Origin: Aequorivita lipolytica | Lineage (GTDB): Bacteria > Bacteroidota > Bacteroidia > Flavobacteriales > Flavobacteriaceae | NCBI RefSeq assembly: GCF_007997135.1 | Contig: NZ_VORU01000007.1 | Location: 1-64,000, forward strand | Direction: 5' to 3' | Length of the DNA: 64,000 nucleotides | Shown: piece by piece, positions 38,762-61,108 of the stretch | Numbering within the stretch: the first letter of the stretch is position 1 | Layout: the number at the start of each line of letters is the position of its first letter | Notes under the pieces: generated by a model | Told to the model about the DNA's origin: nothing | Databases searched by the model: none | The model's input: only the letters and a program-made list of their open reading frames with translations | Position numbers and translations under genes: made by a program

Positions 38762-40177
38762 TCACAATCCTACTCTATAATATTCCAAAACCCTAACTCG
38801 TAACAAATATTCATAACCAACATTCGCCAAATTGATTTGCGCATTATCAAGATTATTTTTACTAATAATATAGTCCACACTATTGGATACACCATTATTA
38901 AAACGAATCTCATTAATACGAAAGGATTCTTTATAGGCTTCCACTTGATCCTGTAATAAACTATAGCGTTCAAAAGCAGCCTGCATTGTATTGTAGGACT
39001 GCTTAACGGATTGCTGAAGATTGAGCTTCGTCATTTCTAGAGTTGTTTGTGCTTCTTCTTTTTTAATTTTTTCAAGGGCTACATTATTTTTGGCTCGAAA
39101 CCCGTTGAATAAAGGTACTGTAACCGCAAAACCTACCGAGGAATTCAAATTATTGGCAAACTGGTCATTATAAGGAATTTCCTCACTCTTAAAATTCGAT
39201 TGCTCAGTTAACACCGCAAAATTTTGGTTGTTTATAGTCACAAAATCGCCATTTTCAATGATACTGGTTCCAGATTCAGTAAAAAGACGCGCCGCACTTG
39301 AATAGTTTGTATTCAAATTGGCGAAAAAACTTATTTCAGGAGTGTACTGTGATCTTGCTACAGCAACTCCCTTGCTTGCCGCTTCTAAGCTTAAATCGCT
39401 TGCCTTAACTGATGGAAATACATCCAAAGCCTGCGTATAGACTTCGTTAGGAGTATATGTATATTTTTCAATCTCTAACTTTTGATCCAAAGCGGCTACC
39501 GTAATTTCTTCATTTGCATTTATCAATGTGTTGAGATTGATAATTTCAGTTTCAAGAGTGTTCTCACTTTCCACTAAATTGGAAGCATCCGCTGCTATCT
39601 GACCTTGAAGATCTCTATATTCAGCGGGATTTCCTGTTTCTTCTTCATACAAACTTCTAAGCCGGTCTAGCTGTCCTTGTATTGTACCTACTCTGGCTTT
39701 GGCTAGTTTAACCAAATCCTGGGCATTGAGTACTTGTAAATAAGTTAAGGTAACGTTTAGTATCAATGCTTGTTTGGCGGCTTCCGTCTCCATCTCGGCG
39801 GCTTTCAGGTTCAGTTTCGCTTGCTTCCAACTATTGATAAGTCTAAAACCATTAAAAACCGTGGCATCTAGTCCCAACCCAGCATTCGAGAAGGTGAGCT
39901 GCTCGTTTACAAAAGAATTTGTAAAAGGGTCAATGCTCCGCCCATTTGAAATACCCAAATTATAATTGCCATTTATTGTGGGTAACAGCGCATTTTTGTT
40001 TTGCCTAAAATTTATATCACTCGTTTTTTCGTTTAAATGTGATTGCTTTAAATCCAGGTTATTTTTCAGCGCTAAATCAATACACTCCTCAAGGGTTCGC
40101 ACAGTTCTTTCTTCTGTTTGCGCAAAAATTGTTAGGGGAAGACTTAATAGGAAAAAACAAATGATTTTATATTTCAT
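38762..40177 (-). CDS. TolC-family outer-membrane efflux protein
   Basis: A 471-residue protein from MKYKIICFFLLSLPLTIFAQ (signal peptide) at 40177. It has the two-fold repeated helical/strand pattern of outer-membrane efflux channels (LDLKQSHLNEKTSDINFRQ; NNVALEKIKKEEAQTTLEMTKLNLQQSVKQSYN) and coiled-coil segments. TolC trimers span the outer membrane and periplasm. As the last gene of the minus-strand block with HlyD, two ATPases and six permeases, it gives the exit channel of the system. It follows the first ATPase gene by 22 bases. Confidence 0.88.
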   Translation of the reverse strand: MKYKIICFFLLSLPLTIFAQTEERTVRTLEECIDLALKNNLDLKQSHLNEKTSDINFRQNKNALLPTINGNYNLGISNGRSIDPFTNSFVNEQLTFSNAGLGLDATVFNGFRLINSWKQAKLNLKAAEMETEAAKQALILNVTLTYLQVLNAQDLVKLAKARVGTIQGQLDRLRSLYEEETGNPAEYRDLQGQIAADASNLVESENTLETEIINLNTLINANEEITVAALDQKLEIEKYTYTPNEVYTQALDVFPSVKASDLSLEAASKGVAVARSQYTPEISFFANLNTNYSSAARLFTESGTSIIENGDFVTINNQNFAVLTEQSNFKSEEIPYNDQFANNLNSSVGFAVTVPLFNGFRAKNNVALEKIKKEEAQTTLEMTKLNLQQSVKQSYNTMQAAFERYSLLQDQVEAYKESFRINEIRFNNGVSNSVDYIISKNNLDNAQINLANVGYEYLLRVRVLEYYRVGL

Positions 40178-40199
40178 GATTTTTGTTTGATGAATTGAC

Positions 40200-40868
40200 T
40201 TAAATATGATTGCGGCCGCCATCCAGAAGATGCAAAGTGCGTGAGCCATAAGCTGCGTTTGTTTCTGAATGAGTTGCCTGAATTATGGTTACACCTGCTT
40301 GGTTAAGTTCCTTAAAAAGTTGCATAATTTCCTCACTTTGTTTGGAATTGAGGTTGCCTGTTGGCTCGTCTGCAAGAATTAGTTTTGGCTTTGCTATTAA
40401 TGCACGCGCAACACCCACTAATTGCTGTTGGCCACCACTCAACTGGCTTGGGAAAAGATCTTTTTTGCCCACAATATTAAAGCGGTCAAGCATATCGGCA
40501 ACCAAAGCTTTGCGTTCAGAGGACTTTACATTTTTGTAAAGTAAGGGCGTTTCTATATTTTCATAAACCGTCAACTCATCTATTAAATGATAAGCCTGAA
40601 ATACAAAACCAATGTATTCCTTGTATAGCTTGGAACGGTTTTTTTCCTTCATGGAATGGACGGACTCATCCAGAAATTTATATTCGCCTTCCTGAAAGTT
40701 GTCAAGCATTCCTATTACGTTGAGCAAAGTGGATTTCCCCGAACCGGATGGGCCCATTATCGAAATAAACTCGCCTTCTTCCACTTGTAGGTTAATGTCT
40801 TTCAGAAGAAAAATTCTACTTCCCCCTTGGGTTACCCATTTAAAAATGTTGTTAAGTTCTAGTAACAT
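40200..40868 (-). CDS. ABC transporter ATP-binding protein (LolD/MacB type), copy 1
   Basis: A 222-residue ATPase with Walker [10 protein letters not shown], signature [14 protein letters not shown], Walker [10 protein letters not shown] and the switch histidine in QATHSE. The NLNSKQSE segment and QQLVG in the signature differ slightly from the partner ATPase at 55946 (QQRVA, NLDSSNG). It belongs to the small ATPases that partner MacB/LolCE-type permeases. It is separated from the permease at 41072 by a vestigial permease 5' end and a heptad array, so its dedicated permease may be the lost one. Confidence 0.92.
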
Positions 40869-40904
40869 ATTGTTTATTTTCTATTAGTATTTTTATTTCT
40901 ATTA

Positions 40905-40946
40905 TGTTTAAGCTGCGCAAAGCGATTTTAAATAACTCCCAATCAT
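40905..40946 (-). pseudogene. Vestigial 5' end of a seventh permease gene
   Basis: On the minus strand the ATG at 40946 begins codons for M-I-G-S-Y-L-K, then a one-base loss shifts to the equivalent of I-A-L-R-S-L. This lines up with the permease N-terminus MIRNYFKIALRNL found in the neighbouring genes. The upstream leader AACAATTGACAATTAACC with TTTTCGAG before the ATG matches the leaders of intact permeases. About 13 codons remain. Confidence 0.7.
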
Positions 40947-40982
40947 CTCGAAAAGGTTAATTGTCAATTGTTATTTTTTTTC

Positions 40983-41059
40983 TATCAACTATCAACTATC
41001 AACTATCAACTATCAACTATCAACTATCAACCATCAACCATCAACCATCAACTATCATC
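40983..41059. repeat. Heptanucleotide array TATCAAC
   Basis: Seven perfect TATCAAC copies are followed by three CATCAAC and a TATCATC, all in phase, between the permease remnant and the first intact permease stop. Confidence 0.95.
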
Positions 41060-41071
41060 CGAACACTTTTT

Positions 41072-43489
41072 TTATTCCGTCTTCAAACTCTCCACCGGAT
41101 TTTTCAAGGCCGCCTGTATGGTGCGGAAACTTATGGTCAATACAGCAATTACCAAGGCTATGGCGCCTGCAGCCAAAAAAATCCAAATATTCAAATCTAT
41201 GCGATACACGTAATTTTGAAGCCATTGCGAGGTTGCATACCAAGCAATGGGAGTTGCAATTAAAAAAGCGATTCCTACCAATTTCAAAAAATTTTTCGTC
41301 AACAAAACGGTGATTGTAGATACACTAGCTCCAACCACTTTTCGGATACCAATTTCCTTTTTACGTTGCGATACCACCAATAATGAAATAGCAAAAAGAC
41401 CGATACAACTTAAAAGTATTGCAAGTATGGAAGCACTGGAAATCATAGTTGTCATCATTCGTTCTTTTTGTAATGTGCGGTCTATATTTGCATCTAGAAA
41501 TGATCCTAAAAATTCGGTGTCGGGTTCTAACTTATTCCAAGCTGCTTTTACTACATCGTACGATTTTACCAAATTGACTGGCGCAACCTTAACATAAGCT
41601 TGATATAGTGGCTTTTTTGAATTCATAAAAAAGCTTAGCGGCTGTATAGATTTATCCATTCCCTGAAAATTGAAATCCTTAACCACCCCAATCACGGAAT
41701 ATTGAATAGAATCGTCTAATACAAACTTGATGTTTAATGGATCTTTTTCGCCAAATTCTTTAACCATAGATTCGTTTATAACCACTGAAAGACTGTCTGT
41801 AGCATATTCTCTATTAAACGAACGTCCCTTTATAATCGGAATATCCAGCGTCTGCGGATAATCATAATCCACAAAAAGGAGGTTGGTTTCTACCTCACGC
41901 CCTTTATATTCAAATCCCATGGCACTTGTGGAATTAGTTCCATCTTTACCAAGCCCCAAAATATTGTCTGCTGCAGTTACACTTACAATATTTGGCTTAT
42001 CTGAAAGTTCATCACGAATTAATTGCATTAGTTGTTTACGATCTTTTTTAGTTTTTAAAGGAAATGCGATTACCTGTTCTTTATTAAAACCCAGATCTTT
42101 GTTCCGCATATAATCAAGTTGTTCTTGCAATACTAGCGTACCACTTATTAGCAAAATGGCGATACCAAATTGCACAACAATTAGTGCATTGCGCACCCTA
42201 TTTCTACCAGTAACTTCCAACTTGCCTTTTAAGGATTGAAGTGTGCCGAGCTTGCTCATTAAGTAGGCAGGATAACCACCGGCAATAAGCGTAATCATTA
42301 ATAGTGAAATAATAAACCCAAAAATTATAGTCGGAGTTGCAATTAAATTAAAAGATGCTTTTGTACGGAACAAAGTTTGAAAAGTATCAAGCAATAAAAA
42401 GGAAAGTAGCGTAGCGAACATTACTGAAACAATGAAGACAAGAATACTTTCGCCCCAAAACTGAAAAAAGAGTTGACTTTTGCTAGCTCCGAGCGTTTTG
42501 CGCATCCCAATTTCGCGAAGGCGTTGTGCACCTTTAGCGATACTCATATTTATAAAATTAACGCTTGCAATGAACAAAATAAGCAGCGCAATAGATAGTA
42601 TAAGATATTGCAGCGTTTTGCTAACTTTTACATTGGCAACCTGTAAGTCTGCAAAACTCACATCTGTAAAAGGCAAAAGATGAATTTGCTGAAATTGCCC
42701 ATCGGCATTTGGTTTGGCGCCGTCGCGTTTGGCAGTTGTAATATCATCGGCAAAGTGCAGATTTGAAAACGGACGAGTTGATTTTTCGAATTTTTCAGGA
42801 GTTATGTTGGCAGCCAGTTTAAGGTAAACTGGATGATTATGAGCATCCCAACGATCTTTGTTATCTTTATAAAACGAATCTGGCAAATCTTGAAAATTGA
42901 AAATTGCGCCAAACCGCAAAGAGCTTGCCTCGGGAAAATCTTTTAAAATGGCAGAGACTGTATAAGGTGCGGCTTCATTATTTCGTTGAAGGGTAATTGT
43001 TTTTCCAAAAGCATTTTCAGAACCAAATATAATCTTGGCGGTTTCCTCGGTAAGTGCGACGGTAGATCGTTCAATAGGATTGATTTTATTTCCTTCCAAA
43101 ACTGGAAAAGTAAAAATGTCAAAAAAATCAGGATCTGCCCACGCTGAACCAATGCTCAAGGTTTTTTCTTTATAGGTAATAAGCGGGCCTCCTGTAGCAT
43201 AACGTGTTATTTTTTCAACGCCTGGAATCTCTGATTTTAATGTTGGAGCAAAGGGAATTGGATTTGCATCACTGGATTCTGAACCTTCAGGTATTTGTGA
43301 AGTTGTATACACTTGATAGATCGAACCAACGTTTTCATGAAATTTATCAACAGACAATTCAAATAAAGCATACATGCTCAATAAAAATGCGACCCCAAAG
43401 GCAGCCGTCAATCCAATAATATTTAGCGCTGTGAAGGTTCTATCCTTCCAAAGATTACGCAATGCTATTTTTATATAGTTTCTAAACAT
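41072..43489 (-). CDS. MacB/FtsX-type ABC permease 1
   Basis: An 805-residue permease with a fused double architecture: N-terminal helix (~22-43), periplasmic MacB-type domain (~45-285), a helix bundle (~288-455), a second periplasmic domain (~460-675) and three C-terminal helices (~680-790). Motifs are IGMRKTLGASKSQL and IGIRKVVGASVSTI, one after each half's first helix. The tail reads ALKNPVESLKTE. Such proteins couple ATP hydrolysis to periplasmic mechanical work or export. It is one of six tandem paralogues. Confidence 0.92.
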   Translation of the reverse strand: MFRNYIKIALRNLWKDRTFTALNIIGLTAAFGVAFLLSMYALFELSVDKFHENVGSIYQVYTTSQIPEGSESSDANPIPFAPTLKSEIPGVEKITRYATGGPLITYKEKTLSIGSAWADPDFFDIFTFPVLEGNKINPIERSTVALTEETAKIIFGSENAFGKTITLQRNNEAAPYTVSAILKDFPEASSLRFGAIFNFQDLPDSFYKDNKDRWDAHNHPVYLKLAANITPEKFEKSTRPFSNLHFADDITTAKRDGAKPNADGQFQQIHLLPFTDVSFADLQVANVKVSKTLQYLILSIALLILFIASVNFINMSIAKGAQRLREIGMRKTLGASKSQLFFQFWGESILVFIVSVMFATLLSFLLLDTFQTLFRTKASFNLIATPTIIFGFIISLLMITLIAGGYPAYLMSKLGTLQSLKGKLEVTGRNRVRNALIVVQFGIAILLISGTLVLQEQLDYMRNKDLGFNKEQVIAFPLKTKKDRKQLMQLIRDELSDKPNIVSVTAADNILGLGKDGTNSTSAMGFEYKGREVETNLLFVDYDYPQTLDIPIIKGRSFNREYATDSLSVVINESMVKEFGEKDPLNIKFVLDDSIQYSVIGVVKDFNFQGMDKSIQPLSFFMNSKKPLYQAYVKVAPVNLVKSYDVVKAAWNKLEPDTEFLGSFLDANIDRTLQKERMMTTMISSASILAILLSCIGLFAISLLVVSQRKKEIGIRKVVGASVSTITVLLTKNFLKLVGIAFLIATPIAWYATSQWLQNYVYRIDLNIWIFLAAGAIALVIAVLTISFRTIQAALKNPVESLKTE

Positions 43490-43568
43490 ATTTTAAAAGA
43501 TTAATTGTTGAATAAAGATTCAAGATTAAAGAGCCAAGACTGATAACTGAACACTGAACACTTTTTTT

Positions 43569-45923
43569 TCACTCCGTCCGTAAACTCTTAACTGGATTTG
43601 CGATTGCAGCTTTTATTGCCTGAAAACTAACCGTAATTAAGGCAATCAATACGGCTAATATTCCAGCCACAGCAAATACCCACCACCCAATGTCTATTCT
43701 ATATTCATAATCCTGAAGCCAATCTTTCATTATCCACCATGCCAATGGAAACGAGATTATACAGGAAATGACTACCAGTTTTAGAAAATCCTTAGATAAT
43801 AAGCCCACAAGATTCCGTACACTTGCTCCAAGCACTTTTCGTACGCCAATCTCTTTTTTTCGTTGCTCGGCTGTATAGGCTGCAAGGCCAAATAGTCCAA
43901 GACAGGATATAAGAATGGCTATTGCGGCAAAAATACCTGCCAGCTCTCCAATTAGCGTTTCTGTTTTAAACGATTTTTCAAATTGTTCGTCCACAAATTT
44001 GTATTCAAATGGATAGCTGGGATTGTTCTCCTCCATAATATTTTTTAGTGCGGGTAAAGCTTTTGACAGGTCGGCATTTCTTTTAAAGCGTATGTTGAGA
44101 TAATTTCCATACTCACTTGCGTAGAACATTAAGGGCGTACTTTTCTCATAGAGATTATTGTAAACAAAGTCGTCGACAACCCCAATAACGGTAAGCGGCT
44201 GATCCTGAAATTGAATAGTGGAACCTACAACATCGTTCAGGCCAGTAAGTTTTGCAAATGATTTATTAATGAGAATGCTGCTACTGTCGGTTTCTATATT
44301 GGGATAAAAATCGCGACCCTCTTTGAGTTTGATTCCCATTGATTTTATGTAATCTGGAGAAACACCTTCAAAGGTTATCAAAACTTGTTTTTCAGGGTCT
44401 TTACCTTGCCAATTAAAATTACTTGTGGTACTGCCTTTGAACAGTGGTGTATTTGTACTTAAGGAAACATTTTCCACAAAACCACTCTGTAAAAGACTAT
44501 TTTTTATAGGTTCAACATTTTTTTGAATATTTTCATTAACATCTATATAAACCAAATGCTGCTTGTCAAAGCCCAGATTTCTGTCCTTTACATGCTGTAT
44601 CTGTTGATAAATCAATATAGTACTGATAATCAAAATTACCGAAATTGAAAATTGGGCAACTACTAATCCCTTTCTAACCCATACGGCACTTCCCTCTTTT
44701 ATTTTCAATCCTTTTAAAACTTTGACTGGTTTAAATGAAGAAAGATAAAAGGCTGGAAATATTCCCGAGATAAGTCCGCAGAGAAGTGTAATACCCAGTA
44801 ATATGCCCAAATGGAGAGGATCAAAAATATTAACGGAAAGTTCTTTTTCAATTAGAAGGTTAAAAAATGGTAACAAGAGAAACAATAACCCAACAGCCAA
44901 TAACGCAGATAGCAAGGCGGTAATTAGGGATTCTCCTATAAATTGAAAAATTAATCCACTTTTACCAGCACCTAATACCTTGCGAACGCCAACCTCTCCA
45001 GCCCTTTTTTGAGAACGAGCAGTGCTAAGGTTCATAAAGTTGATGCAGGCGATAATCAAAATAATCCAAGCAATAAGACTGAAGAGTTTTACGTATTTAA
45101 TTCTGCCCGGAATTTCCTTGCCGTTTTCAAAAGTGTCGTAAAGTCTCCAACGGGTCATAGGGTAGAGCTCTATTTTTGCTATGGCACCATCCTGTTTTGT
45201 GCTTATGTAATCATAGAGTTTTTTGTTGATGACAGAAACATCGGTGTTGGCTTTAATTTGCACAAAAGTATTCACTCCGAGACTTGCCCAGTATTTTAGC
45301 CATTCATTGTCGTTTTCATATAGTTTAAACGGCGCTACCCATTCAAAGTCGAAAGATGTATTATCGGGTAAATCTTCTATAATTCCTTGAACAACATATT
45401 GCCGATCAGTATCTACTTGTATTGTTTTGCCGATAATATTTTTTGTAGATCCAAAAATTTTATAAGCTAATTTTTGAGTAAGAACTACGGAGTTCAATTG
45501 ATTAAAAGCGGAAGAAGCCGAACCTTCCAAAAAATTCAATTGAAACATATCTAAAAAAGAGGGATCAACAAAGTTTCCCTTTACATAAAAGTTTTTTTCA
45601 TTAACCGAAAAAAGCTCTTGATTACTCACGGAAGAACGTGCAGTATTTACCACACCCGGTATATCTGTCTGCATACTGGCAGCTAAAAGACCAGGTGTTG
45701 CATCATACGTCTTTGTGCCACTATCATTGGGAAGGAATGTTTTTACCTTATACAAACTATCTTTATTGGCGAAATAATCATCAAAACGTATCTCATCCTC
45801 TACCCAAAGAAAGATCATGCTTGCACAAGTAATTCCAACGGCTAGACCGAATATATTGATGAAGCTAAAACCTTTGTTCTTCGAAAGATTCCGCAATGCT
45901 ATTTTAAAATAATTCCTAATCAT
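43569..45923 (-). CDS. MacB/FtsX-type ABC permease 2
   Basis: A 784-residue permease with the same double architecture. Motifs are VGVRKVLGAGKSG and IGVRKVLGASVRNL. The tail IKAAIANPVKSLRTE is identical to that of three siblings. The leader before the ATG reads AACAATTAATG then TTTTCAAG, as in permeases 1, 5 and 6. It is closest in length and motif spelling to permease 4, which suggests a recent duplication or gene conversion. Confidence 0.92.
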   Translation of the reverse strand: MIRNYFKIALRNLSKNKGFSFINIFGLAVGITCASMIFLWVEDEIRFDDYFANKDSLYKVKTFLPNDSGTKTYDATPGLLAASMQTDIPGVVNTARSSVSNQELFSVNEKNFYVKGNFVDPSFLDMFQLNFLEGSASSAFNQLNSVVLTQKLAYKIFGSTKNIIGKTIQVDTDRQYVVQGIIEDLPDNTSFDFEWVAPFKLYENDNEWLKYWASLGVNTFVQIKANTDVSVINKKLYDYISTKQDGAIAKIELYPMTRWRLYDTFENGKEIPGRIKYVKLFSLIAWIILIIACINFMNLSTARSQKRAGEVGVRKVLGAGKSGLIFQFIGESLITALLSALLAVGLLFLLLPFFNLLIEKELSVNIFDPLHLGILLGITLLCGLISGIFPAFYLSSFKPVKVLKGLKIKEGSAVWVRKGLVVAQFSISVILIISTILIYQQIQHVKDRNLGFDKQHLVYIDVNENIQKNVEPIKNSLLQSGFVENVSLSTNTPLFKGSTTSNFNWQGKDPEKQVLITFEGVSPDYIKSMGIKLKEGRDFYPNIETDSSSILINKSFAKLTGLNDVVGSTIQFQDQPLTVIGVVDDFVYNNLYEKSTPLMFYASEYGNYLNIRFKRNADLSKALPALKNIMEENNPSYPFEYKFVDEQFEKSFKTETLIGELAGIFAAIAILISCLGLFGLAAYTAEQRKKEIGVRKVLGASVRNLVGLLSKDFLKLVVISCIISFPLAWWIMKDWLQDYEYRIDIGWWVFAVAGILAVLIALITVSFQAIKAAIANPVKSLRTE

Positions 45924-46013: not shown

Positions 46014-48398
46014 TTACTCAGTTTTTAAGCTCTTCACTGGATTTGCCCTCGCAGATTTTACGGCCTGAATTCCCACCGTGAAGGCCGTTATGAGTAATGC
46101 GAAAAATCCACTAAGAACAAACATCCACCATTGAAGGGAGATTCGATATGCAAAATCTCTCAACCAAGCGTCCATTATATACCAAGCGATCGGGAAAGCT
46201 ATAAGCGCAGCAATTCCCACGAGGATGATATAATCTTTAGAAAGCATCACGATCAATTTTAGAACCCCAGCACCCAAAACTTTCCGGATGCCTATTTCCT
46301 TTACCCGTCTTTTGGCCATAAAAGATATTAGCCCAAACATGCCCAAACACGAAATGAAAATAGTCAATAGCGCTACCACATTTACCGTTTTTAGCATTCC
46401 TTCAATCAACCTGTATTGGGCACTTACTTTATCTGTTAAATTTTCTTGTCGATATTTTCTTCTGGAATCAATATTGCTAAATCCATTGGCAATAAGTTTT
46501 TCTATACTCTTTTGATGACCCTCTGCGAACCGAACCGAAAGAAATCGATTAGATGCTAAGGAATTTTTGTTACTATAAAAGTGGACTAAAGGTTCCACAG
46601 CGTTTTGCATATCTTGATAATGAAAATCTTCCATTACGCCAACCACAGGATTTCCAGAAGTAACACTCCCTTTCCCCTTTAATCGTTTACCCTCGATGGA
46701 ATTCCATCCAAGCGCTTTCATAGTTGTTCTATTGATTATAACTGGATGATCGTCGGCTGAATCCAGCTTCTCATCAAAATCCCTTCCCATCACCAATGGA
46801 ATTCTAAGTGTTTTTAGGTAGCCTTCATCCGTATTTGCAAAGCGGGTGCGAACTTCCCTATCTGTTTCAGGATCATAAACCTGATTATAATTAAAATCAT
46901 AATTAGACGGAATCGCATCACTAACAGCAAAATCTTTTACGTATGGATCTGCATTGAGTTTATTCAATAAATCGTTAAATTTTAAGGTTGCTGTTTCTTT
47001 ATTTTTATACTCCAAATCGATATTCCCAACTATAACATTCTCTTTGTTGAAACCCAATGGGGCATTTTTCATATAACCAATTTGGCTATTCAAAATAATT
47101 GCCACACAGATAAATAGAATCGCGATGGTAAACTGTAGGACGATAAATGAATTGCGAACCAAGAAATTGCTTTTTATAGTATCTATCCTTCCCTTTATTC
47201 CTGTTGAAATGGGTGCCGAGATAAACCGAAGTGTAGGCAGTATTCCAACCACCAGCGTAACAAATAATCCCAAACCAATTGCAAATAAAATAACGGGATA
47301 ATCATTTGTTACCGTAAAAGAGATACTACCAAAATCGGCACCGTAAATACCATTTAATTTGGGCAATAAAAATCCAAGAAAAAGTAGTGCGGAAATTGAG
47401 ATTGACGCAAATACCAAAATACCATTCTCGATACAAAACTGAATAATGATACTTTTTTTATTGCCCCCTAATATTTTTCGCACTGCGATATCTTTCGTGC
47501 GGCGATACATTGTGGAGGTATTTAAATTGAGTAAATTAATAAGCACAATGAGCAATACAAATACCGATGCTGCAATAGAGCCACTGATAATAGTATCAAT
47601 TACTGGAAGACTGTCTGATCTCATACCTGAAAAAGGCATTAGCTTTATTTCTGAAAGTGTTGAAGGATCTGAATAATTTTTTTTGGCCAATGCAGTAACC
47701 TGGCTTTCAAACCGTGCAATATCTGTTGTTGGTTTTAATTTGAAAAAATTAACGGTAAAACTATCACTCCAATCGGCACGGGCTATAAAAGTGGGATAAT
47801 CCTCTAAGAGTTTGGTGGGCATCAAAACACCTAAACGAAATGCAGAATAGGGGCTTAAATCACCTATAACTCCTGTTACTGTAAGATTTATACTGTCATT
47901 AAGCTTAATGGTTTCTCCCAAAGGATTTTTTTCACCAAATATTTTTTGGCTGATTTTGTGAAAAAGTACAATGGAATACTTTTTTTCCAATGCCGTTTCA
48001 GGATTGCCATACTTAAACGGTAGGGAGAAAATTTTAAAAAAATCGGGATCTACATAATTTGAACTTTCTTGAAACTCAGTTTCGCCATATTTTAGCCACG
48101 GTTGGCCCCAACCTTGCATATGTGTTGCGGCAATAACTTCTGGTGATGCTTTAACGATTTCATTTAGAAGTGGATATGGGGTTGACTTATAGGTGTCGCC
48201 GCCAGTGGTTACCGTTTTTAAGTAGAAGATGTTTTCTTGACCCTCAATATTGGAATCCGCATTGTAATAGGCATAAACTGAAAAAGCCAAAGTCAATACG
48301 CTCCCAATCCCGATACTCAACCCCAAAAGGTTAAGTGTTGATAGCAGTTTGTTTTTCCACAAATTGCGAAGAGATATTTTTATATGGTTCTGTATCAT
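46014..48398 (-). CDS. MacB/FtsX-type ABC permease 3
   Basis: A 794-residue permease. Motifs are IAVRKILGGNKKSI and IGIRKVLGAGVLKL. The tail SARANPVKSLKTE is less like the others. The first periplasmic domain (FYLKTVTTGGDTYKSTPYPL) differs clearly from that in permeases 2, 4, 5 and 6, and the leader lacks the shared AACAATTAA element. It may be an older or separately acquired member of the tandem set. Confidence 0.92.
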   Translation of the reverse strand: MIQNHIKISLRNLWKNKLLSTLNLLGLSIGIGSVLTLAFSVYAYYNADSNIEGQENIFYLKTVTTGGDTYKSTPYPLLNEIVKASPEVIAATHMQGWGQPWLKYGETEFQESSNYVDPDFFKIFSLPFKYGNPETALEKKYSIVLFHKISQKIFGEKNPLGETIKLNDSINLTVTGVIGDLSPYSAFRLGVLMPTKLLEDYPTFIARADWSDSFTVNFFKLKPTTDIARFESQVTALAKKNYSDPSTLSEIKLMPFSGMRSDSLPVIDTIISGSIAASVFVLLIVLINLLNLNTSTMYRRTKDIAVRKILGGNKKSIIIQFCIENGILVFASISISALLFLGFLLPKLNGIYGADFGSISFTVTNDYPVILFAIGLGLFVTLVVGILPTLRFISAPISTGIKGRIDTIKSNFLVRNSFIVLQFTIAILFICVAIILNSQIGYMKNAPLGFNKENVIVGNIDLEYKNKETATLKFNDLLNKLNADPYVKDFAVSDAIPSNYDFNYNQVYDPETDREVRTRFANTDEGYLKTLRIPLVMGRDFDEKLDSADDHPVIINRTTMKALGWNSIEGKRLKGKGSVTSGNPVVGVMEDFHYQDMQNAVEPLVHFYSNKNSLASNRFLSVRFAEGHQKSIEKLIANGFSNIDSRRKYRQENLTDKVSAQYRLIEGMLKTVNVVALLTIFISCLGMFGLISFMAKRRVKEIGIRKVLGAGVLKLIVMLSKDYIILVGIAALIAFPIAWYIMDAWLRDFAYRISLQWWMFVLSGFFALLITAFTVGIQAVKSARANPVKSLKTE

Positions 48399-50829: not shown

Positions 50830-50920
50830 TTATATTTTTTATTCCCTCCCCAACCCTCCCCGAAGGGGAGGGAGCTATTTCTGAGTAACCATTCCCCCCT
50901 TTGGGGGTTAGGGGGATTAT
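50830..50920. repeat. GC-rich palindromic repeat between permeases 4 and 5
   Basis: Two imperfect inverted pairs (CCCTCCCC/GGGGAGGG and CCCCCCTTTGGGGG) stand out in otherwise AT-rich DNA. The same class recurs at 56708-56738 (GTCCCCC/GGGGGAC). Confidence 0.7.
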
Positions 50921-53337: not shown

Positions 53338-53397
53338 TTTATAAAGAGTTAATTGTTATATGTGTTCTAATTGCCAATTGAATACAGTTTATTTTTT

Positions 53398-55866
53398 TCA
53401 CTCCGTTCGTAAACTTTTTACTGGGTTTGCGATTGCCGCTTTAATGGCCTGAAAGCTCACTGTTATCAATGCGATACCTAACGCAGCAATTCCGGCAACC
53501 AAAAAGGCCCACCAAGGGATATTAATTCTATATGCAAAATCTTGTAACCACTGGTTCATTGCAAGCCAAGCGATGGGTGATGCAACCAACATGGCTAAGA
53601 TGACCAAGCGTAGAAAATCCATGGAAAGCAGTTTTATAATTTCGGTCACTCTTGCTCCCAGTATTTTCCGAATACCAATTTCCTTGGTGCGCTGTTGAGC
53701 GGTAAAAGCCACGAGACCAAAAAGCCCAAGACACGCCACAAAAATGGATAATGCTGTGAAAATGCCAAATAACGATGCCTGTTGTAGGTCTGTTTTATAT
53801 GCGGCGTTGAGGTCGTCGTCCAGAAAGGAGTATTCAAAAGGAACGTCTTGTTGATAATTTTTCCATTCCTTTTCAATGGTGGCGATAAGTTCTTTCGGAT
53901 TGTCGGTCTTATACTTGAGCGTGATAAAGGAAACTCCAGTATCATAGCTCTGCGAACTTTTTGAAAATAAAGCAAAGGGTAATATGGAACTGTGCAAGGA
54001 TTCCAAATTAAAATCCTTTACAACACCTATTACTGTGTAATATTCCATATTTCCACCTGGATAGCGTATTTTTTGACCAATAGGATTTTCCCACCCTATC
54101 TGTTTGGCCGCAGCTTCATTGATTATTACCGAAAGTGAATCGTTAAAACGAGCATCAAATTCACGGCCTTGTTCTATTTTCAAGTTTAGTGTGGAAATAA
54201 AATGGTCATCAACCAAATAGGAGCCTAAACTTATGTCCTTGGCAACCATATTATCTGTTTCGGTGGTCTGTGGCACATAAAAATCACCAAAAGAACCCTT
54301 CGTGAATATCCCCGTAGAGCTGGTGGCATCTTCTACCTGAGGAATTGCTGCAATTTCTTCTCTGAAACTTTCGACTCCTGCATCCAACTTTTCGCCATTA
54401 TTTATAACCAGAATGTTTTCTTTGTCATAACCCAAATCTCGCTGTTGGGTGTACCTTAATTGGGTAAATACAATAATTGTGGAAATGACCAATACAATAG
54501 CGATGACAAATTGAAAGACGACTAGCCCATTTCGCAACAACCCATTTTTTTTAGAGGTAATGGAATTTTTAAGAATATTAACAGGCTTAAATGAGGTAAG
54601 ATAAAATGCAGGGTAAATACCGGCCAAGAAAGCGGTAAGTAGTGTTAGGCCGAGAAGGATTAACCAAATTCCGTTGCTGAAAATAGAATGGAAAGGGATT
54701 GTTTTCCCAGAAAGGGAATTAAATAATGGAAGAATCAAAGCCACCAACAAAACGGCAAAAACAGCAGAAATGATGGTGTATAAAAAAGCTTCAGTCAAAA
54801 ACTGTTTGATAAGCTGGCTCCTAGGTGAACCCAAAACTTTCCGGATTCCGATTTCTTTACTCCTTCTACTGGCTTGGGCTGTGGCCAAATTGGTAAAATT
54901 AACACACGCCAAAACAATTATGGAAAAGGCGATCAATCCAAAAATATAAATGTTCTGTATATCACCCTGGTCTGAAATTGCCGATACAATTTCCCCAGAG
55001 TGCAAATGTATATCAGTCAACGGCTGTAAATGGATATTCCAATAATTACCATTTTTAAGAAACTGTTTATAAGGTTGTCCGATACGCTCAAATGCACTGG
55101 CGGCTTGAGTTTTGAGCATATCTGGAAATTTGGATTCCAAATTGGTAAGTGTCTTCGGGTCTTCTGTTGTCTGAGAAGTCAGTTTTACATACGTAGCCAT
55201 ATTAAGCCACACCCAACTCCAGTTAAAATAAGTTACATCACCAAAGTTTTGAACCGGCATAAGCATATCGAATTTTACTGTGGCTGGCAGATTGGTAAGG
55301 TCTTTTAATAAACCAGTCACTTTAAGCGGTTGTTTGTCTTTTCCGTAATAGAGTATTTGCCCCATAGGATCCGTATTGCCGAAATATTTTTTTGCAATTT
55401 GAGGTGTGATTACAATACTATTTGCGCTTTGCAAGCAGGTTTTTGGATCGCCTTTTGCCAGGGGATAGGTGAGAAGTTCTAAAAAATTGGGGTCAACAGC
55501 GTAAATATCGGTTTCGTTAAAAAGATGCTGTCCTTCGGCCGTTTTTGATTCAATTACGCCAGCATTGGGACGGTAGATGCGGGTGTAGCTTTCCACTTCT
55601 GGAAAATTATCTACCAAAGCTGCTCCGGCAGGTGGTGGCGTATATCCCGCGTAAAAGGTGTTATCACCCATTTTTCCGTTAATATTCACTCTGTAGATCT
55701 GACCGGAATCCTCAATAAAGTTATCATAACTCAACTCATCCTGAATCCAAATCAGGATAAGAACTCCCACAGTAAAACCTATTGTTAATCCAATAATGCT
55801 GATGGTTGCATAGAATTTATTTTTAAGCAAATTCCGCCAAGCAATTTTAAAATAATTCCTAAACAT
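53398..55866 (-). CDS. MacB/FtsX-type ABC permease 6
   Basis: An 822-residue permease, the longest of the set. Motifs are IGIRKVLGSPRSQL and IGIRKILGARVTEI, with the tail IKAAIANPVKSLRTE. It is next to the second ATPase gene (79-base gap filled by a heptad array). It is the most upstream permease of the tandem run. Confidence 0.92.
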   Translation of the reverse strand: MFRNYFKIAWRNLLKNKFYATISIIGLTIGFTVGVLILIWIQDELSYDNFIEDSGQIYRVNINGKMGDNTFYAGYTPPPAGAALVDNFPEVESYTRIYRPNAGVIESKTAEGQHLFNETDIYAVDPNFLELLTYPLAKGDPKTCLQSANSIVITPQIAKKYFGNTDPMGQILYYGKDKQPLKVTGLLKDLTNLPATVKFDMLMPVQNFGDVTYFNWSWVWLNMATYVKLTSQTTEDPKTLTNLESKFPDMLKTQAASAFERIGQPYKQFLKNGNYWNIHLQPLTDIHLHSGEIVSAISDQGDIQNIYIFGLIAFSIIVLACVNFTNLATAQASRRSKEIGIRKVLGSPRSQLIKQFLTEAFLYTIISAVFAVLLVALILPLFNSLSGKTIPFHSIFSNGIWLILLGLTLLTAFLAGIYPAFYLTSFKPVNILKNSITSKKNGLLRNGLVVFQFVIAIVLVISTIIVFTQLRYTQQRDLGYDKENILVINNGEKLDAGVESFREEIAAIPQVEDATSSTGIFTKGSFGDFYVPQTTETDNMVAKDISLGSYLVDDHFISTLNLKIEQGREFDARFNDSLSVIINEAAAKQIGWENPIGQKIRYPGGNMEYYTVIGVVKDFNLESLHSSILPFALFSKSSQSYDTGVSFITLKYKTDNPKELIATIEKEWKNYQQDVPFEYSFLDDDLNAAYKTDLQQASLFGIFTALSIFVACLGLFGLVAFTAQQRTKEIGIRKILGARVTEIIKLLSMDFLRLVILAMLVASPIAWLAMNQWLQDFAYRINIPWWAFLVAGIAALGIALITVSFQAIKAAIANPVKSLRTE

Positions 55867-55899
55867 CTTGAAAAGGTTAATAGTTAAATGTTATTTGTA

Positions 55900-55950
55900 C
55901 ACACTACACACTACACACTACACACTACACACTACACACTACACACTACT
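55900..55950. repeat. Heptanucleotide array CACACTA
   Basis: About seven in-phase copies of a 7-base unit (CACACTA) fill the gap between permease 6 and the second ATPase gene, slightly overlapping the ATPase stop region. Confidence 0.9.
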
Positions 55951-56641
55951 TACTACTCACATACTCAGAAAGCACATTCTCCGTAACCTTCTGCCCATCA
56001 AGCATCCGTATAATTCGGTGACTATATTTGGCGTCGTGCTCGCTGTGTGTTACCATAATGATAGTTGTACCAGCTTCATTCAATTCTGTCAATAAATCCA
56101 TAACCTCGTTTCCATTACTACTATCCAAATTTCCCGTAGGCTCATCGGCTAGTATAAGTTTTGGATTGTTTACCACAGCACGAGCAACTGCAACACGCTG
56201 TTGCTGCCCTCCAGACAATTGTTGTGGAAAGTGTTTCCTGCGGTGCATAATCTGCATTTTTTCAAGTACTGCATCTACCCTTGCTTTACGCTCCGCAGGT
56301 TTAACTCCTGTGTATATCAACGGCAGCTCCACGTTTTCAAGAACGGTAAGCTCGTCAATAAGATTAAAGCTTTGGAATACAAACCCAATATTATGCTTTC
56401 GAAGATCGGCGCGTTTGCGTTCATTAAAACCGGCCACTTCTATCCCGTTGAATACAAAACTGCCGCCATCTGGGTCGTCCAAAAGTCCAAGAATATTTAA
56501 TAAGGTAGATTTACCGCAACCTGAGGGTCCCATAATCGCTACAAATTCGCCCTCGTTTACTTTAAAGGATAATTTATTTAATGCAATGGTTCGCACTTCT
56601 TCTGTGGCGTAGTATTTTTCTAAGTCTGTAATTGTTATCAT
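55946..56641 (-). CDS. ABC transporter ATP-binding protein (LolD/MacB type), copy 2
   Basis: A 231-residue ATPase with Walker A GPSGCGKST, signature LSGGQQQRVAVARA, Walker [13 protein letters not shown] and switch His in VTHSEHDA. It is the canonical form and is likely the general ATPase for the adjacent permeases. It lies between the HlyD adaptor gene and permease 6. Confidence 0.94.
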   Translation of the reverse strand: MITITDLEKYYATEEVRTIALNKLSFKVNEGEFVAIMGPSGCGKSTLLNILGLLDDPDGGSFVFNGIEVAGFNERKRADLRKHNIGFVFQSFNLIDELTVLENVELPLIYTGVKPAERKARVDAVLEKMQIMHRRKHFPQQLSGGQQQRVAVARAVVNNPKLILADEPTGNLDSSNGNEVMDLLTELNEAGTTIIMVTHSEHDAKYSHRIIRMLDGQKVTENVLSEYVSSK

Positions 56642-56755
56642 CTGTTAGTATTTATTGCTATTGTTTATTGTTATTCCTATCGAATTGAAGTAATCTCTCC
56701 GCAAATGGTCCCCCTTTGGGGATTGAGGGGGACATCCTATCCTATCCTTTTATAA

Positions 56756-56822: not shown

Positions 56823-56830
56823 TGCTAATT

Positions 56831-58102
56831 TTAATTTTTCAAAACCAATTCCTGTACATCGCCATAATTGTCGTAACTGCTGGTTATCACTTTATCGCCA
56901 GGTTCCAAGCCGCTCAAAACTTCATAGTTTTCAGTATTCTGGCTGCCTAAGGTTATTTCGGTTTTATAGGCGGTATTGCCATCCTCGCTAACTTTAAAAA
57001 TCCAGTTGCCGCCGGTTTGCTGAAAGAAACCTCCTTTCGGAATCATTACAGCTTGTTTTTCATCACTCAAAGCCAACCGTATTTGTAAAGTCTGTCCCCT
57101 TCGAATTCCTTCCGGCACTGCTTCCTCAAATTGCATATCAACCTGAAAACGTCCGTTTGCAACTTGAGTGTATACTTTTTTGATGGTTAGTTTATAGCTT
57201 TTGCCATTAAAACTGAAACTTCCCGTTTGCCCATTGTATATTCTGGAAATATAATGTTCGTCAATATCTGCCCGCACTTTAAACCCGCTCAAAACATCAA
57301 TCTGTCCCAATCGCTCTCCTTTGTTTTTGGATTGTCCTATTTCCGCATCTAAGGAAGTTAGCTGCCCATCAACGGGAGCTTTTACAACAAGATCTGCAAC
57401 TTTTCTGCGCATAAGTTCTAATGCGTTTTGCGTACGTGCATAGCTACTTTGCACTTGCCCCTTTTCCTGTTTCACAGCCGAGGAATCCTGTTTTAGAATT
57501 TGTTTGGATAATTTCATACGCTCCTTTTGATAATTGTATTCGTTTTCTGCCTTTACCAAATCCTGACGGCCAATAGCGTCTTTATCATACAATTTTTTAT
57601 TGAGGTCATACATCCGTTTAGATTCTATCAACCCGCTTTCCACATCGGTGTATTGGTTTAATTTATTGATGGTATTTTGTCGCGCCGCGTTTTGTGAAAT
57701 TTGCATCTGGGTCAACAAATTATAAACCTGTGTTTCCTGGTTTACAAGACTCAATTCAAGATCGGTATTCGAAAGTCTTAAAATGGGATCGCCCTTTTTT
57801 AGAATAGATCCGTCTTCCACAAATTTTTCCTCCACCCGGCCACCTTCAAGGGCGTCCAAATAAATTGTGGTGATGGGAAGCACAATGCCATTTACTGGAA
57901 TATTTTCCTGAAATACACCTTTTTCCACAACGCTTATGCTGATGCGTTCCTTTTCAACGTTCAGCTTAGAGCCGCCCATGGAAGAAATCATTACAAAAAC
58001 GATTAAAGTAATTAAAAGACCTATGCCCGCAAGGAGCAGGATTTTTTTGGTGGTGAATCGTTTCTTTTCTAAAGGAATATCCATATTGTGATTAGTTTTC
58101 AT
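56831..58102 (-). CDS. HlyD/MacA-type periplasmic adaptor protein
   Basis: A 423-residue membrane-fusion protein from the ATG at 58102; a TTG frame from 58117 exists but overlaps a promoter-like element. It has an N-terminal helix (KILLLAGIGLLITLIVFVMISS), a biotinyl-lipoyl-like half (VEEKFVEDGSILKKGDPILRL), a long coiled coil (YQKERMKLSKQILKQDSSAVKQ), the second lipoyl half (KAPVDGQLTSLDAEIGQSKNKG) and a C-terminal beta-barrel. It bridges permeases and the TolC channel. It is the first gene of the minus-strand block. Confidence 0.92.
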   Translation of the reverse strand: MKTNHNMDIPLEKKRFTTKKILLLAGIGLLITLIVFVMISSMGGSKLNVEKERISISVVEKGVFQENIPVNGIVLPITTIYLDALEGGRVEEKFVEDGSILKKGDPILRLSNTDLELSLVNQETQVYNLLTQMQISQNAARQNTINKLNQYTDVESGLIESKRMYDLNKKLYDKDAIGRQDLVKAENEYNYQKERMKLSKQILKQDSSAVKQEKGQVQSSYARTQNALELMRRKVADLVVKAPVDGQLTSLDAEIGQSKNKGERLGQIDVLSGFKVRADIDEHYISRIYNGQTGSFSFNGKSYKLTIKKVYTQVANGRFQVDMQFEEAVPEGIRRGQTLQIRLALSDEKQAVMIPKGGFFQQTGGNWIFKVSEDGNTAYKTEITLGSQNTENYEVLSGLEPGDKVITSSYDNYGDVQELVLKN

Positions 58103-58180
58103 AGTATAGTCTGTCAATATGATGCCAAAATATTAATCTATTGGATAACAGAGTTTTAACCTATTTTTTAAAATAATGAG

Positions 58181-58219
58181 TGTCCGCTTTTGATACATTC
58201 CCTGTTCGCTGCCGAGACA
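58181..58219. promoter_or_regulatory. Two tandem 17-bp activator-type sites
   Basis: TGTCCGCTTTTGATACA (58181-58197) and TGTTCGCTGCCGAGACA (58203-58219) match at 13 of 17 positions, are 22 bases apart start to start (two helical turns), and each has TGT...ACA dyad symmetry. They lie between the divergent adaptor and regulator genes. I infer they bind the sigma-54-type regulator encoded at 58432. Confidence 0.6.
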
Positions 58220-58431
58220 CTTTCCTTAATTCAGAATAATGAATTCAGAATTATGAATTAAAAGAAGCAAATTTGTTAATATTGTAAATGATAATTGTCC
58301 AATTAAAAAATTAGGTTCCCTTGTAAAATTAACTTTTCATTAAGGTTAAGTCTTGATTCTTGATTCTTGGCTCTTGATTCCAAGAACAAAGCGGTCTTGT
58401 TTCTTTTTTTGGATAATACTAATATGTAGAT

Positions 58432-59775
58432 ATGTTACTCCACAATGCCAACATCTTGGTTATAGACGACGATGAGGATGTTCTCGTTGCACTTCGGCTT
58501 TTGCTTAAATCTAAAGTGAAACAAGTAGTGGTCAATAAAAATCCCAATACCATCCAAAACCTGATGCAAAGCCATCAATTTGATTTGGTAATATTGGATA
58601 TGAATTTTAATGGCCTCGTAAATACGGGCAATGAAGGGATATTTTGGCTGAATAAAATTAAAAAGCAAAATCCAACTGTGGATGTTATTTTGATAACCGC
58701 CTACGGCGATATCGATCTTGCGATTCGTTCTTTAAAGCAAGGCGCTTCAGATTTTATTGTAAAACCCTGGAAAAACGAAAAAATTCTTGAAACCGTTCGT
58801 GAGCTGGTAGAAAAAAAGAAAAACCCTCAAACTCAGAAACTGAATTTAAATTCAGAAACCAAGATATTAGGGGAGAGCGAACCCATGCAAGATGTGTTTG
58901 TAAAACTCAAAAAAGTAGCGCCCACAGATGCCAACATATTAGTCTTGGGTGAAAATGGAACGGGGAAGGATTTGATTGCCAAAGCCATTCATGAGCATTC
59001 TCTTCGCAAAAACATGCCTTTTGTAAAAGTAGATGTGGGTGCACTCACCGAAACACTTTTTGAAAGTGAACTTTTTGGTTATAAAAAGGGTGCTTTTACT
59101 GATGCTAGGGAAGACCGAAAAGGACGTTTTGAAGCCGCAAATGGTGGGACACTTTTTTTAGACGAAATAGGAAATATTTCCCTACGCCAGCAAGCCAGAT
59201 TGCTTACGGTTTTACAAAATAGACAGGTAACCCCATTAGGTTCCAACCAGCCAATCTCCATTGACATCCGCTTAGTTTGCGCCACAAATTTATTCATCGG
59301 CGATCTAGCCGATGAGGAGAAATTCAGAAAAGACCTTATCTATCGTATTAACACAGTTGATATAACAATCCCGCCTTTACGCGATAGAAGTACAGATATT
59401 ACATTGCTTGCGCACTATTTCATAAACTTTTATTCAGAAAAATATAGCAAAGGAAGCTTTAGTTTAGACCCTGATTTTATTCAGAAATTAAAGAAACATC
59501 ACTTTTCTGGAAACGTACGCGAACTACAATATACTTTGGAACGCACCGTAATTATGGCCGAAAATCAAACTTTGACGGCAGCTGATTTAATTTTTTCGGC
59601 TATCGAAAGTCCGCAAATACTTGCCGTACAGAAAGAAACAAATCTTGATGCAATCGAGAAAAGCGCAATACTTGCGGTAATAGAAAAAAATAAAGGGAAT
59701 ATCTCTAAATCTGCGAAGGAACTAGGCATCACCCGTGCCGCACTCTACCGCAGGCTCAACAAATATGAACTATAA
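58432..59775 (+). CDS. Sigma-54-dependent response regulator (NtrC/AtoC type)
   Basis: A 447-residue regulator: receiver domain with Asp56 in LVILDMNF, AAA+ domain with Walker A GENGTGKD, the sigma-54 loop motif KGAFTDAREDRKGRF, Walker B TLFLDEIGN, and a C-terminal Fis-type helix-turn-helix (SKSAKELGITRAALYRRLNKY). The loop reads GAFTDA instead of GAFTGA, a variant often seen in Bacteroidota. It is transcribed divergently from the export block, across a region with two tandem sites, and overlaps its kinase by 11 bases. It very probably controls the block. Confidence 0.93.
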   Translation: MLLHNANILVIDDDEDVLVALRLLLKSKVKQVVVNKNPNTIQNLMQSHQFDLVILDMNFNGLVNTGNEGIFWLNKIKKQNPTVDVILITAYGDIDLAIRSLKQGASDFIVKPWKNEKILETVRELVEKKKNPQTQKLNLNSETKILGESEPMQDVFVKLKKVAPTDANILVLGENGTGKDLIAKAIHEHSLRKNMPFVKVDVGALTETLFESELFGYKKGAFTDAREDRKGRFEAANGGTLFLDEIGNISLRQQARLLTVLQNRQVTPLGSNQPISIDIRLVCATNLFIGDLADEEKFRKDLIYRINTVDITIPPLRDRSTDITLLAHYFINFYSEKYSKGSFSLDPDFIQKLKKHHFSGNVRELQYTLERTVIMAENQTLTAADLIFSAIESPQILAVQKETNLDAIEKSAILAVIEKNKGNISKSAKELGITRAALYRRLNKYEL

Positions 59776-61108
59776 AGGCTACAGGTTCTCGCTATCACTT
59801 CGCGTATTGGGATTGCTCATCTCCCTTACCGTTCTTGCCTTTGGAATAGTTTTGCCTAATACCTATGCGATAATTACAGGCATTTTTCTTTCAATATTTG
59901 CGGTTTACCACTTGTACAATTTTGCAATAAAACGTTTTGTGGCGATGGACGATTTTTTTGAATCGGTAAAATACCGTGATTTTTCCAGATGGTTTTCTGA
60001 AGAGCACGGACCTACTGATATGACGGAATTGCACAAAGGATTTAATTTGGTAAACAGGACCATTAAGAGCATCGATAACGAACGGGAAGCACAGTTTTTA
60101 TACCTTCAGAAAATACTTGAAATGGTCAATATCGGCATCATCGCTTATAATGTGGAAAGTGGGGAAGTGCTTTGGGCGAACGATTCAATTTTAAAAACAT
60201 TGGATTTCCCCTCCTTCAAAAACATCAGTTTTGTAGAAAAAAGACATCCACAACTTTACGACGAACTTTTTGAAACCTACCATTCCACAACAGCCTCTGT
60301 GCCCCTCGAAATGAAACAGGAAACACTGAATGTGTTGATCTCTGACACAGTATTTGAAATGGAAACCAATTCCTTCAAACTAATCGTCCTTCAGAACATT
60401 GAGGAAACCCTGAGCCAAAACGAATCGGAAGCCTGGAAAAAACTGCTAAGCGTGATGACCCACGAAATTATGAACAGCATAGCGCCCATTTCTTCCCTCG
60501 CAGAAACTTTGGAAAATGAAATCCAAAATAACTTGAATGATCCCGAAGCGAATTTGCTGAATATTGAAGACCTTAATTCGGGTATTAAATCAATAAAAAG
60601 ACGAAGTGAAGGCTTGTTGAAATTTGCCAAAACATACAGAAGCCTTAATAAAGTAACCCAACTGAATCTTGCTAATGTTAGGATTGAGGAGCTCTTCAAT
60701 AACATCCAGACCTTGATGCAGCCTTCCATAGAAAATAACAATATTAAGATTGAGTTTCTCCTTGAAAATCCGGATTTGCAGATAAACATCGACAGTTATT
60801 TAATTGAACAGGTTTTAATCAATCTGTTGCTTAATTCAATTGAGGCCTGCCACCAAGTTGAAAATGCAAAAATTCAATTAGCGGCCCACAAAAAGACGAA
60901 CGGCAATGTTATTATAAGGGTATCAGACAATGGCAAAGGCATCCCTGAAGAAATTAAGGATAGCGTTTTTGTGCCATTTTTCAGCACCAAAAAAACCGGA
61001 AGTGGTATTGGGTTGAGTTTGAGTAAACAGATTATGCTACTTCACAAAGGTAGAATACAAATAAAAAGCCGTGAGGGGGAAGGAACGATTATAAGCCTAA
61101 TGTTTTAA
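59765..61108 (+). CDS. NtrY/NtrB-like sensor histidine kinase
   Basis: A 447-residue kinase from the ATG at 59765, with two N-terminal helices (LRVLGLLISLTVLAFGIVL and TYAIITGIFLSIFAVYHLY), a HAMP/PAS-like region around 110-220, phosphoacceptor His233 in SVMTHEIMNS, N-box LLNSIEACHQ, and G-boxes DNGKGIPEE and GSGIGLSLS. It has almost no periplasmic loop, so it likely senses a membrane or cytoplasmic state. It overlaps the regulator gene by 11 bases and forms the same two-component system. Confidence 0.92.
   Translation: MNYKGYRFSLSLRVLGLLISLTVLAFGIVLPNTYAIITGIFLSIFAVYHLYNFAIKRFVAMDDFFESVKYRDFSRWFSEEHGPTDMTELHKGFNLVNRTIKSIDNEREAQFLYLQKILEMVNIGIIAYNVESGEVLWANDSILKTLDFPSFKNISFVEKRHPQLYDELFETYHSTTASVPLEMKQETLNVLISDTVFEMETNSFKLIVLQNIEETLSQNESEAWKKLLSVMTHEIMNSIAPISSLAETLENEIQNNLNDPEANLLNIEDLNSGIKSIKRRSEGLLKFAKTYRSLNKVTQLNLANVRIEELFNNIQTLMQPSIENNNIKIEFLLENPDLQINIDSYLIEQVLINLLLNSIEACHQVENAKIQLAAHKKTNGNVIIRVSDNGKGIPEEIKDSVFVPFFSTKKTGSGIGLSLSKQIMLLHKGRIQIKSREGEGTIISLMF

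Follow-up and report, generated by a model that had tools for sequence, protein, structure and literature searches.

We analyzed the first 64,000 nucleotides of contig NZ_VORU01000007.1 of Aequorivita lipolytica (the whole of this stretch is hereafter the window), which carry a predicted MacB-type tripartite export locus. On the minus strand, one run encodes, in order, a HlyD-type adaptor, an ATPase (ATPase 1), six double-domain permeases (p1 to p6), a second ATPase (ATPase 2), and a TolC-family outer-membrane channel. A sigma-54-type regulator and a histidine kinase lie on the plus strand, divergent from the exporter run. What stands out, judging from cross-genome comparison, is a chassis (adaptor, ATPases, channel, regulator, and kinase) that appears near-constant between relatives while the permease set appears to be exchanged. 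The gene content, a C-terminal tail motif, the promoter architecture, permease exchange versus the chassis, and the kinase and ATPase features described below are all read from sequence.

Gene content of the export locus

A first-pass annotation had proposed a tripartite system under one two-component system. Pfam and NCBIfam identified every gene it had named, each where it had been placed, and the gene content supports a tripartite system with one dedicated two-component system (Table 1). From hlyD to ATPase 2, neighboring genes are separated by 60-203 bp, and a consensus scan of the run's gaps detected no terminator-like sites on the minus strand. The open reading frame (ORF) of the adaptor reaches 58117, and its likelier start is the MDIP at 58084, which is kept in relatives. 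Similarly, the listed TolC frame (to 40249) overlaps ATPase 2, and the likely start near 40177, followed by a signal peptide, does not.

The permeases are 784-822 amino acids long. MacB_PCD matches were found in 6/6 genes, and in p1, p4, and p6 Pfam resolves two stretches each of MacB_PCD and FtsX. NCBIfam ranks ADOP first and DarB second for all six, always below cut-off. Within the genome, the six outscore by far every other listed match, the others being LolC-type frames of about 420 amino acids. Elsewhere in the genome (contig C30, 88584-89183), an 852-amino-acid frame has a weak MacB_PCD match (E 4e-12). Before ATPase 2 lies what appears to be a relic of a seventh permease. In a search of the cluster against itself, it aligned with the start of p5 (81.6% over 76 bp, E 1e-13), and the starts of p1 and p3 were aligned with it as well.

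Table 1. Features of the export locus, in window coordinates. L numbers designate loci in other genomes; percentages are identities.
Feature	Coordinates	Strand	Evidence and remarks
TolC-family outer-membrane channel	38762..40177	-	Pfam OEP; NCBIfam TIGR01844 below cut-off
ATPase 2 (D-loop NLNS)	40200..40868	-	Pfam ABC_tran; among 14 sequences on one branch side
Apparent relic, 5' end of seventh permease	40916..40990	-	Leader and first codons, broken frame; lies before ATPase 2
Permease p6	41072..43489	-	Pfam, NCBIfam; closest relative 82%, L096; 69-71% in same-genus L090-L092
Permease p5	43569..45923	-	NCBIfam; closest relative 75%, L031; 51% to p3
Permease p4	46014..48398	-	Pfam, NCBIfam; closest relative 78%, L031
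Permease p3	48466..50829	-	NCBIfam; orthologues 80-82% in same-genus L090, L091; AlphaFold2 model
Permease p2	50917..53337	-	NCBIfam; closest relative 81%, L096
Permease p1, double-domain MacB/FtsX type	53398..55866	-	Pfam, NCBIfam; closest relative 77%, Cryomorpha ignava L031
ATPase 1 (LSGGQQQRVAVAR, D-loop NLDS)	55946..56641	-	Pfam ABC_tran; motif kept in adaptor-side ATPases
HlyD/MacA-type periplasmic adaptor	56831..58084	-	Pfam HlyD_3, HlyD_D23; NCBIfam RND_mfp above cut-off, DarC below
TGGCAT, putative minus-24-type promoter element before exporter run	58122..58127	-	TGGCAY conservation in gaps
Candidate enhancer box B, start 72 bp upstream of TGGCAT	58179..58199	-	Box search
Candidate enhancer box A, 22 bp upstream of box B	58201..58221	-	Box search
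Response regulator: receiver, AAA+ sigma-54 activator domain, Fis-type helix-turn-helix (GAFTDA)	58432..59775	+	Pfam
Histidine kinase, two-helix membrane hairpin, without periplasmic sensor domain	59765..61108 (ORF from 59735)	+	Pfam HATPase_c; topology

Chassis and permease set among relatives

For 6/6 permeases the closest relative lies outside their own cluster. Those of p1, p4, and p5 are in Cryomorpha ignava, a member of another family; those of p2 and p6 are in L096, from the same family and another genus, and that of p3 (82%) is in same-genus L091. The chassis behaves differently. In the same-genus loci L090 and L091, the adaptor is 94%, ATPase 1 98-99%, ATPase 2 93-95%, the regulator 90-94%, the kinase 82-90%, and TolC 85% identical to the proteins encoded here, while only p3 and p6 of the six permeases have orthologues there.

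To place this on a broader footing, permease sets were compared in pairs of 29 loci, with orthologues defined as reciprocal best hits of at least 55% identity and permeases shorter than 700 amino acids or cut by a locus edge excluded. The share of the smaller set held in common was 0.70 at adaptor identities of at least 85% (14 pairs) and 0.48 at 75-85% (31 pairs). It was 0.22 at 65-75% (74 pairs), 0.02 at 55-65% (147 pairs), and 0.08 at 40-55% (67 pairs). In a tree of 67 permeases, drawn from 15 loci by a quick method and with long branches flagged, the grouping mostly follows permease type, not locus.

Some comparisons weigh against a stable chassis with a mobile permease set. Same-genus L092 has only p6 in common. 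The chassis of same-genus L093 has itself diverged further (77% in the adaptor), and identity there is 61% for p6 and 53% for p3. Permease sets can also be kept whole: L013 and L019 have 5/5 permeases in common and L016 and L017 4/4, with adaptors 90-91% identical. In addition, loci L010-L089 were fetched with p3 as the query, and the sequences are kin, so counts are not independent.

Six permeases, which the first-pass annotation had regarded as exceptional, are an ordinary arrangement in related bacteria, many of whose genomes hold runs of 4 to 11. Among the 80 loci fetched with p3, a biased set comprising the best 80 of at least 588, runs of at least four permeases occur in 50 and of at least six in 26; both are lower bounds. 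At least one such permease was found in 56/296 genomes sampled at the class level and in 104/299 at the family level, surveys that scored three candidates per genome and so report presence only. Genomes for full counting were picked at roughly even steps from these positives. The 17 from the class include 6 with runs of at least four and 2 with at least six (longest 10); among the 21 from the family the numbers are 14 and 7 (longest 11). Runs were joined at gaps below 1.5 kb, a rule that splits the 14 permeases of one genome (G585) into shorter runs. Within the genus, 5/24 genomes, this one included, have a run, with 2, 3, 3, 4, and 6 permeases. A divergent regulator is present at 19/19 adaptor genes with at least 3.5 kb of upstream sequence.

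Such runs are present in many sampled Bacteroidota genomes, and in the open literature, surveyed by titles and abstract openings, we found no description of multi-permease runs in this phylum. For Bacteroides thetaiotaomicron, neighboring permease and HlyD genes are tabulated, not discussed, in the available part of one report (PMC10434189). In L072 (Maribacter litopenaei), the permease run is fragmented into numerous short frames, the cause being either decay or an error in sequencing.

The flanks of the locus, compared over about 0.3-5.5 kb, have no similarity to those of L090, L091, and L093 and one 68-bp match to L092. Beside tolC, a short RteC-family ORF (38304-38693, plus strand) matches only profile positions 90-217 of 219 and may be a mobile-element remnant. 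Beside the kinase, a 270-amino-acid ORF (61541-62353, plus strand) has no Pfam match and is followed by a DUF5675 protein. Farther away are direct repeats that overlap, each about 180-210 bp long and 89-91% alike (30187-30750), and a repeat protein matching a six-fold beta-flower family (34625-35062). Tandem 7-bp repeats with differing units occur at 28248-28321, 33344-33393, 37337-37383, 40982-41057, 55898-55960, and other sites; they are scattered over the window, two of them in the run's gaps, and are not specific to the run.

Promoter, enhancer boxes, and regulator

Sigma-54 promoters have a minus-24 TGGCAY and a minus-12 GC at fixed spacing. We identified TGGCAY in 25/25 gaps between regulator and exporter genes versus 3.07 expected, and its reverse complement in 3/25; gaps outside 40-1200 bases were dropped. 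The two candidate enhancer boxes upstream have the form AGTGT-N2-C-N5-CG-N-ACACT. With up to three mismatches allowed, the box occurs in 19/25 gaps versus 41/1000 control segments. The distance from the start of box B to TGGCAY is 72 bp in the window and in L010, L016, L090-L093, and L096, with 71 bp in L038 and 73 bp in L094. In five Mucilaginibacter and two Chitinophagaceae loci it is 93 bp (L034: 95 bp), about two helical turns longer.

Within the genome, the only exact match to the box pattern (58203-58221) lies inside box A. One mismatch gives 17 matches versus 15 for the control, so that weaker sites in this genome are indistinguishable from chance. A stricter form of the box has 31 sites in 26 of the 299 family genomes; the reversed control has 1. 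Of these 26 genomes, 25 are among the 104 permease-positive ones (lists matched by hand; Fisher p 8e-12), and 27/31 sites are followed within 10 kb by a listed permease, in most cases at a distance of about 2.1 kb or 4.5-5 kb. In G508, the sole permease-negative genome with a strict box, the site has no TGGCAY. The box may serve as a sequence marker for the regulon.

The regulator's domains (receiver, Sigma54_activat, and Fis helix-turn-helix) fit NtrC-type sigma-54 activators, and the genome contains a sigma-54 gene. A computational study reports an enrichment of predicted sigma-54 promoters for COG0577 permeases in Bacteroidia, which it calls the first evidence of the link (PMC12316311).

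Other promoter features point the other way. The box at up to three mismatches was not found in 6/25 gaps, and the strict box was not found in 79/104 permease-positive genomes. The minus-12 half of the promoter is degenerate. The regulator loop reads GAFTDA here and in 21/32 regulator sequences (GAFTGA in 2, GAFTSA in 1, no match in 8), GAFTGA being the usual loop of sigma-54 activators. Because of the degenerate minus-12 half and the GAFTDA loop, sigma-54 dependence of the run is only likely. Some relatives also appear to have a second promoter inside the run: each of four strict sites (L105, L106, L107, and L108) lies 103-158 bp before an internal permease whose identity to p3 is 58-59%, and in 4/4 TGGCAY follows at 72 bp. 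A single transcript would therefore not be universal.

Inverted repeats of the CCCCCAAAGGGGG type were also noted in two of the run's gaps (50895-50907 and 56710-56722; 2 versus 0.04 expected in the window).

Proposed function and related systems

An AlphaFold2 model of p3 (mean predicted local distance difference test score 88.3) has 8 long helices, and 8 hydrophobic helices are predicted for p1. In a fold search with the p3 model, Escherichia coli YbbAP ranked first (9ge6, Foldseek E 3.4e-20, TM 0.50), followed by a Streptococcus MacB-like permease, MacB, LolCDE, and BceAB. A profile-based sequence comparison ranked a Porphyromonas permease domain and MacB as the best relatives of solved structure.

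We consider it probable, with some reserve, that the locus encodes a MacB-type tripartite exporter, controlled by a two-component system of its own, in which a constant chassis works with exchangeable permeases. Each 8-helix double-domain permease would be a fused pseudo-dimer, like LolC and LolE in one chain, so each could form a full inner-membrane transporter with two shared ATPase copies. One adaptor and one TolC would serve all six. Pairwise identity between the six averages 0.57 for the last helices, 0.36 for helices 2-4, and 0.24-0.25 for the periplasmic domains; because these domains differ most, each permease probably has its own substrate. Of the first-pass suggestion of combinatorial substrate sets, a different substrate per permease is the part that seems plausible. 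By analogy with the family (MacB, LolCDE, Bce, Var), the likely role would be regulated export of several periplasmic amphiphiles or peptides. Candidate substrates are periplasmic or membrane-embedded amphipathic peptides, lipopeptides, and similar amphiphiles, which ATP-driven movement of the periplasmic domains would push into the adaptor-TolC duct.

For control, the kinase, perhaps reading membrane or transporter state as its stimulus, would phosphorylate the regulator. The regulator would bind both boxes and activate the adaptor promoter via sigma-54, with the whole run presumably cotranscribed as one unit. Over evolution, lineages would retain the chassis but gain and lose permeases and exchange them with one another. 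A more specific version is tentative: permeases may be swappable cassettes exchanged between species, with short conserved gene ends as possible recombination seams. The adaptor, TolC, and an asymmetric two-ATPase motor would stay fixed, and the entire set would be governed by a kinase that reads the transporter, together with an enhancer-promoter module of rigid spacing (22 bp and 72 bp). If a chassis with cassettes is correct, the substrate range of the exporter would be tuned by permease exchange, and which periplasmic domain recognizes what becomes testable.

The two ATPases may differ in role. They fall on two sides of a tree (31 and 14 sequences, with two outliers; frames outside 200-270 amino acids, such as a split one in L016 and a 193-residue one in L033, were dropped). 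Twenty-three positions, each at least 90% conserved within its group, differ between the groups. ATPase 2 differs from ATPase 1 beside the Q-loop (FQAYH versus FQSFN) and in the D-loop, with N in place of D in 14/14. The set-apart branch and these fixed differences would suit an asymmetric pair, with ATPase 1 on one half of the fused permease, ATPase 2 on the other, and one normal plus one altered ATP site. This idea is compatible with a chassis serving several permeases, and we regard it as possible but somewhat doubtful. Same-genus L093 shows neither ATPase 2 nor TolC in the 5.5 kb beyond its last permease, so ATPase 1 may suffice, and the tree was built by a quick method, its ATPase 2 side being joined by long branches. 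An altered second ATPase would offer a test case for asymmetric motors in this transporter type.

The kinase raises another explanation. Regulator-adjacent kinases, counted after dropping those of 150 bits or less, are predicted to start with a two-helix hairpin and a short turn in 20/29 cases, this one among them. By eye, the layout is the same in 8/9 of the rest, with L064 differing. The layout recalls intramembrane-sensing kinases such as BceS, whose response requires BceB and active BceA according to two reports (PMC5985334; PMC3023708). The locus could then be a sensing and resistance module like BceAB-BceRS, whose permeases mainly detect (and strip) antimicrobial peptides and report transport to the kinase, with export secondary. 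The sensorless hairpin kinase and the presence of BceAB among the fold-search matches speak for this. The run, however, includes an adaptor and TolC, whereas BceAB is described without an adaptor (PMC5985334). Helix and domain numbers differ too: each permease here is predicted to have 8 helices, with two periplasmic domains, as opposed to 10 and one. We judge a primarily sensing role to be rather improbable.

Export of the cell's own peptides or lipids, as by DarBCD and not for protection from foreign compounds, is unlikely. NCBIfam does place DarD top for both ATPases, DarC for the adaptor, and DarB second for the six permeases, but all Dar scores are far below the curated cut-offs. Furthermore, Pfam detected no peptide-modifying enzyme in nine neighboring ORFs scanned, a search that left out the rest of the window and small precursor peptides.

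The first-pass annotation had also pointed to an identical C-terminal tail in four of the six permeases as a sign of duplication or gene conversion. The identity is real and extends to 21 residues. The tail is nonetheless a family motif and not a product of recent conversion, because P-x-x-x-L-[RK]-x-E ends 302/315 permeases from the 80 loci (permeases cut by a locus edge dropped) and because third codon positions of the four tails agree at 9-12/22, a raw count given with no chance expectation. NPVKSLRTE ends 66/315. At least three LolC-like proteins of the genome carry similar ends, listed only where they fit the motif. It is highly improbable that the genes arose by recent tandem duplication and were homogenized by gene conversion while differing little in function; comparison across genomes largely refutes this. 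Within the cluster each permease reaches at best 31-51% identity, against 75-82% to other genomes. Recent duplication or conversion as the source of the tail was rejected on the third-position divergence and those identities. In favor of duplicates kept alike, besides the shared tail itself, is that four tails are identical over 15 residues in only 2/54 loci with at least four permeases.

The same count places these tails at the high end among loci, and an older homogenization may have occurred. When the 3' gene ends were compared in blocks for signs of recombination, the last 60 nucleotides proved alike in both paralogues and orthologues. The p1 tail agrees at 17/21 third positions with the third permease of L031, while the p1 orthologue is the second permease, whose tail protein is not identical and which fell outside that comparison; the match is suggestive only. 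The tail is perhaps a cytoplasmic end near the ATPase.

Among known systems, MacAB-TolC shares the MacB_PCD and FtsX permease fold and, by gene neighborhood, an adaptor and TolC; its ATPase is fused to MacB, a homodimer of one gene, whereas here the ATPases are separate and the permeases are six fused pairs. YbbAP likewise has two MacB units fused in one permease and a separate ATPase. YbbP, with 10 helices in all, is described with two linking helices (PMC5985334); the permeases here are predicted to have 8, and their run includes an adaptor and TolC. Vibrio cholerae VarACDEF is tripartite and also keeps its ATPase separate; its single adaptor and single channel are accompanied by two genes for MacB-type permeases (PMC5595328). 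Its two 4-helix permeases are described as subunits of one transporter, its regulator is of the LysR type, and it has no large permease set. BceAB-BceRS resembles the locus in pairing a MacB-superfamily permease with an intramembrane-sensing-type kinase (PMC3023708), and the kinase here likewise lacks a periplasmic sensor domain; the Bce system differs in having no channel as well as no adaptor. The DarBCD system resembles the locus in the NCBIfam rankings and differs in its one permease; here, no precursor or radical SAM gene was found among the scanned ORFs. The BceRS regulator is, moreover, not known to be of the sigma-54 type.

Membership in darobactin export was rejected on scores (DarB 118-162 of 700, DarC 181 of 450, DarD 242 and 294 of 375). 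ADOP (TIGR03434), the best NCBIfam match of 6/6 permeases, shares the duplicated layout, but membership was likewise rejected (272-344 versus a cut-off of 622.3); the name ADOP denotes orphan permeases without partners. Cyanobacterial DevBCA exporters share one TolC, but their genes are separate and each paralogue has its own adaptor, in contrast to the one adaptor at one locus here. The locus belongs to the wide MacB/FtsX superfamily but, as tested, lies outside MacAB, YbbAP, Bce, Dar, and ADOP.

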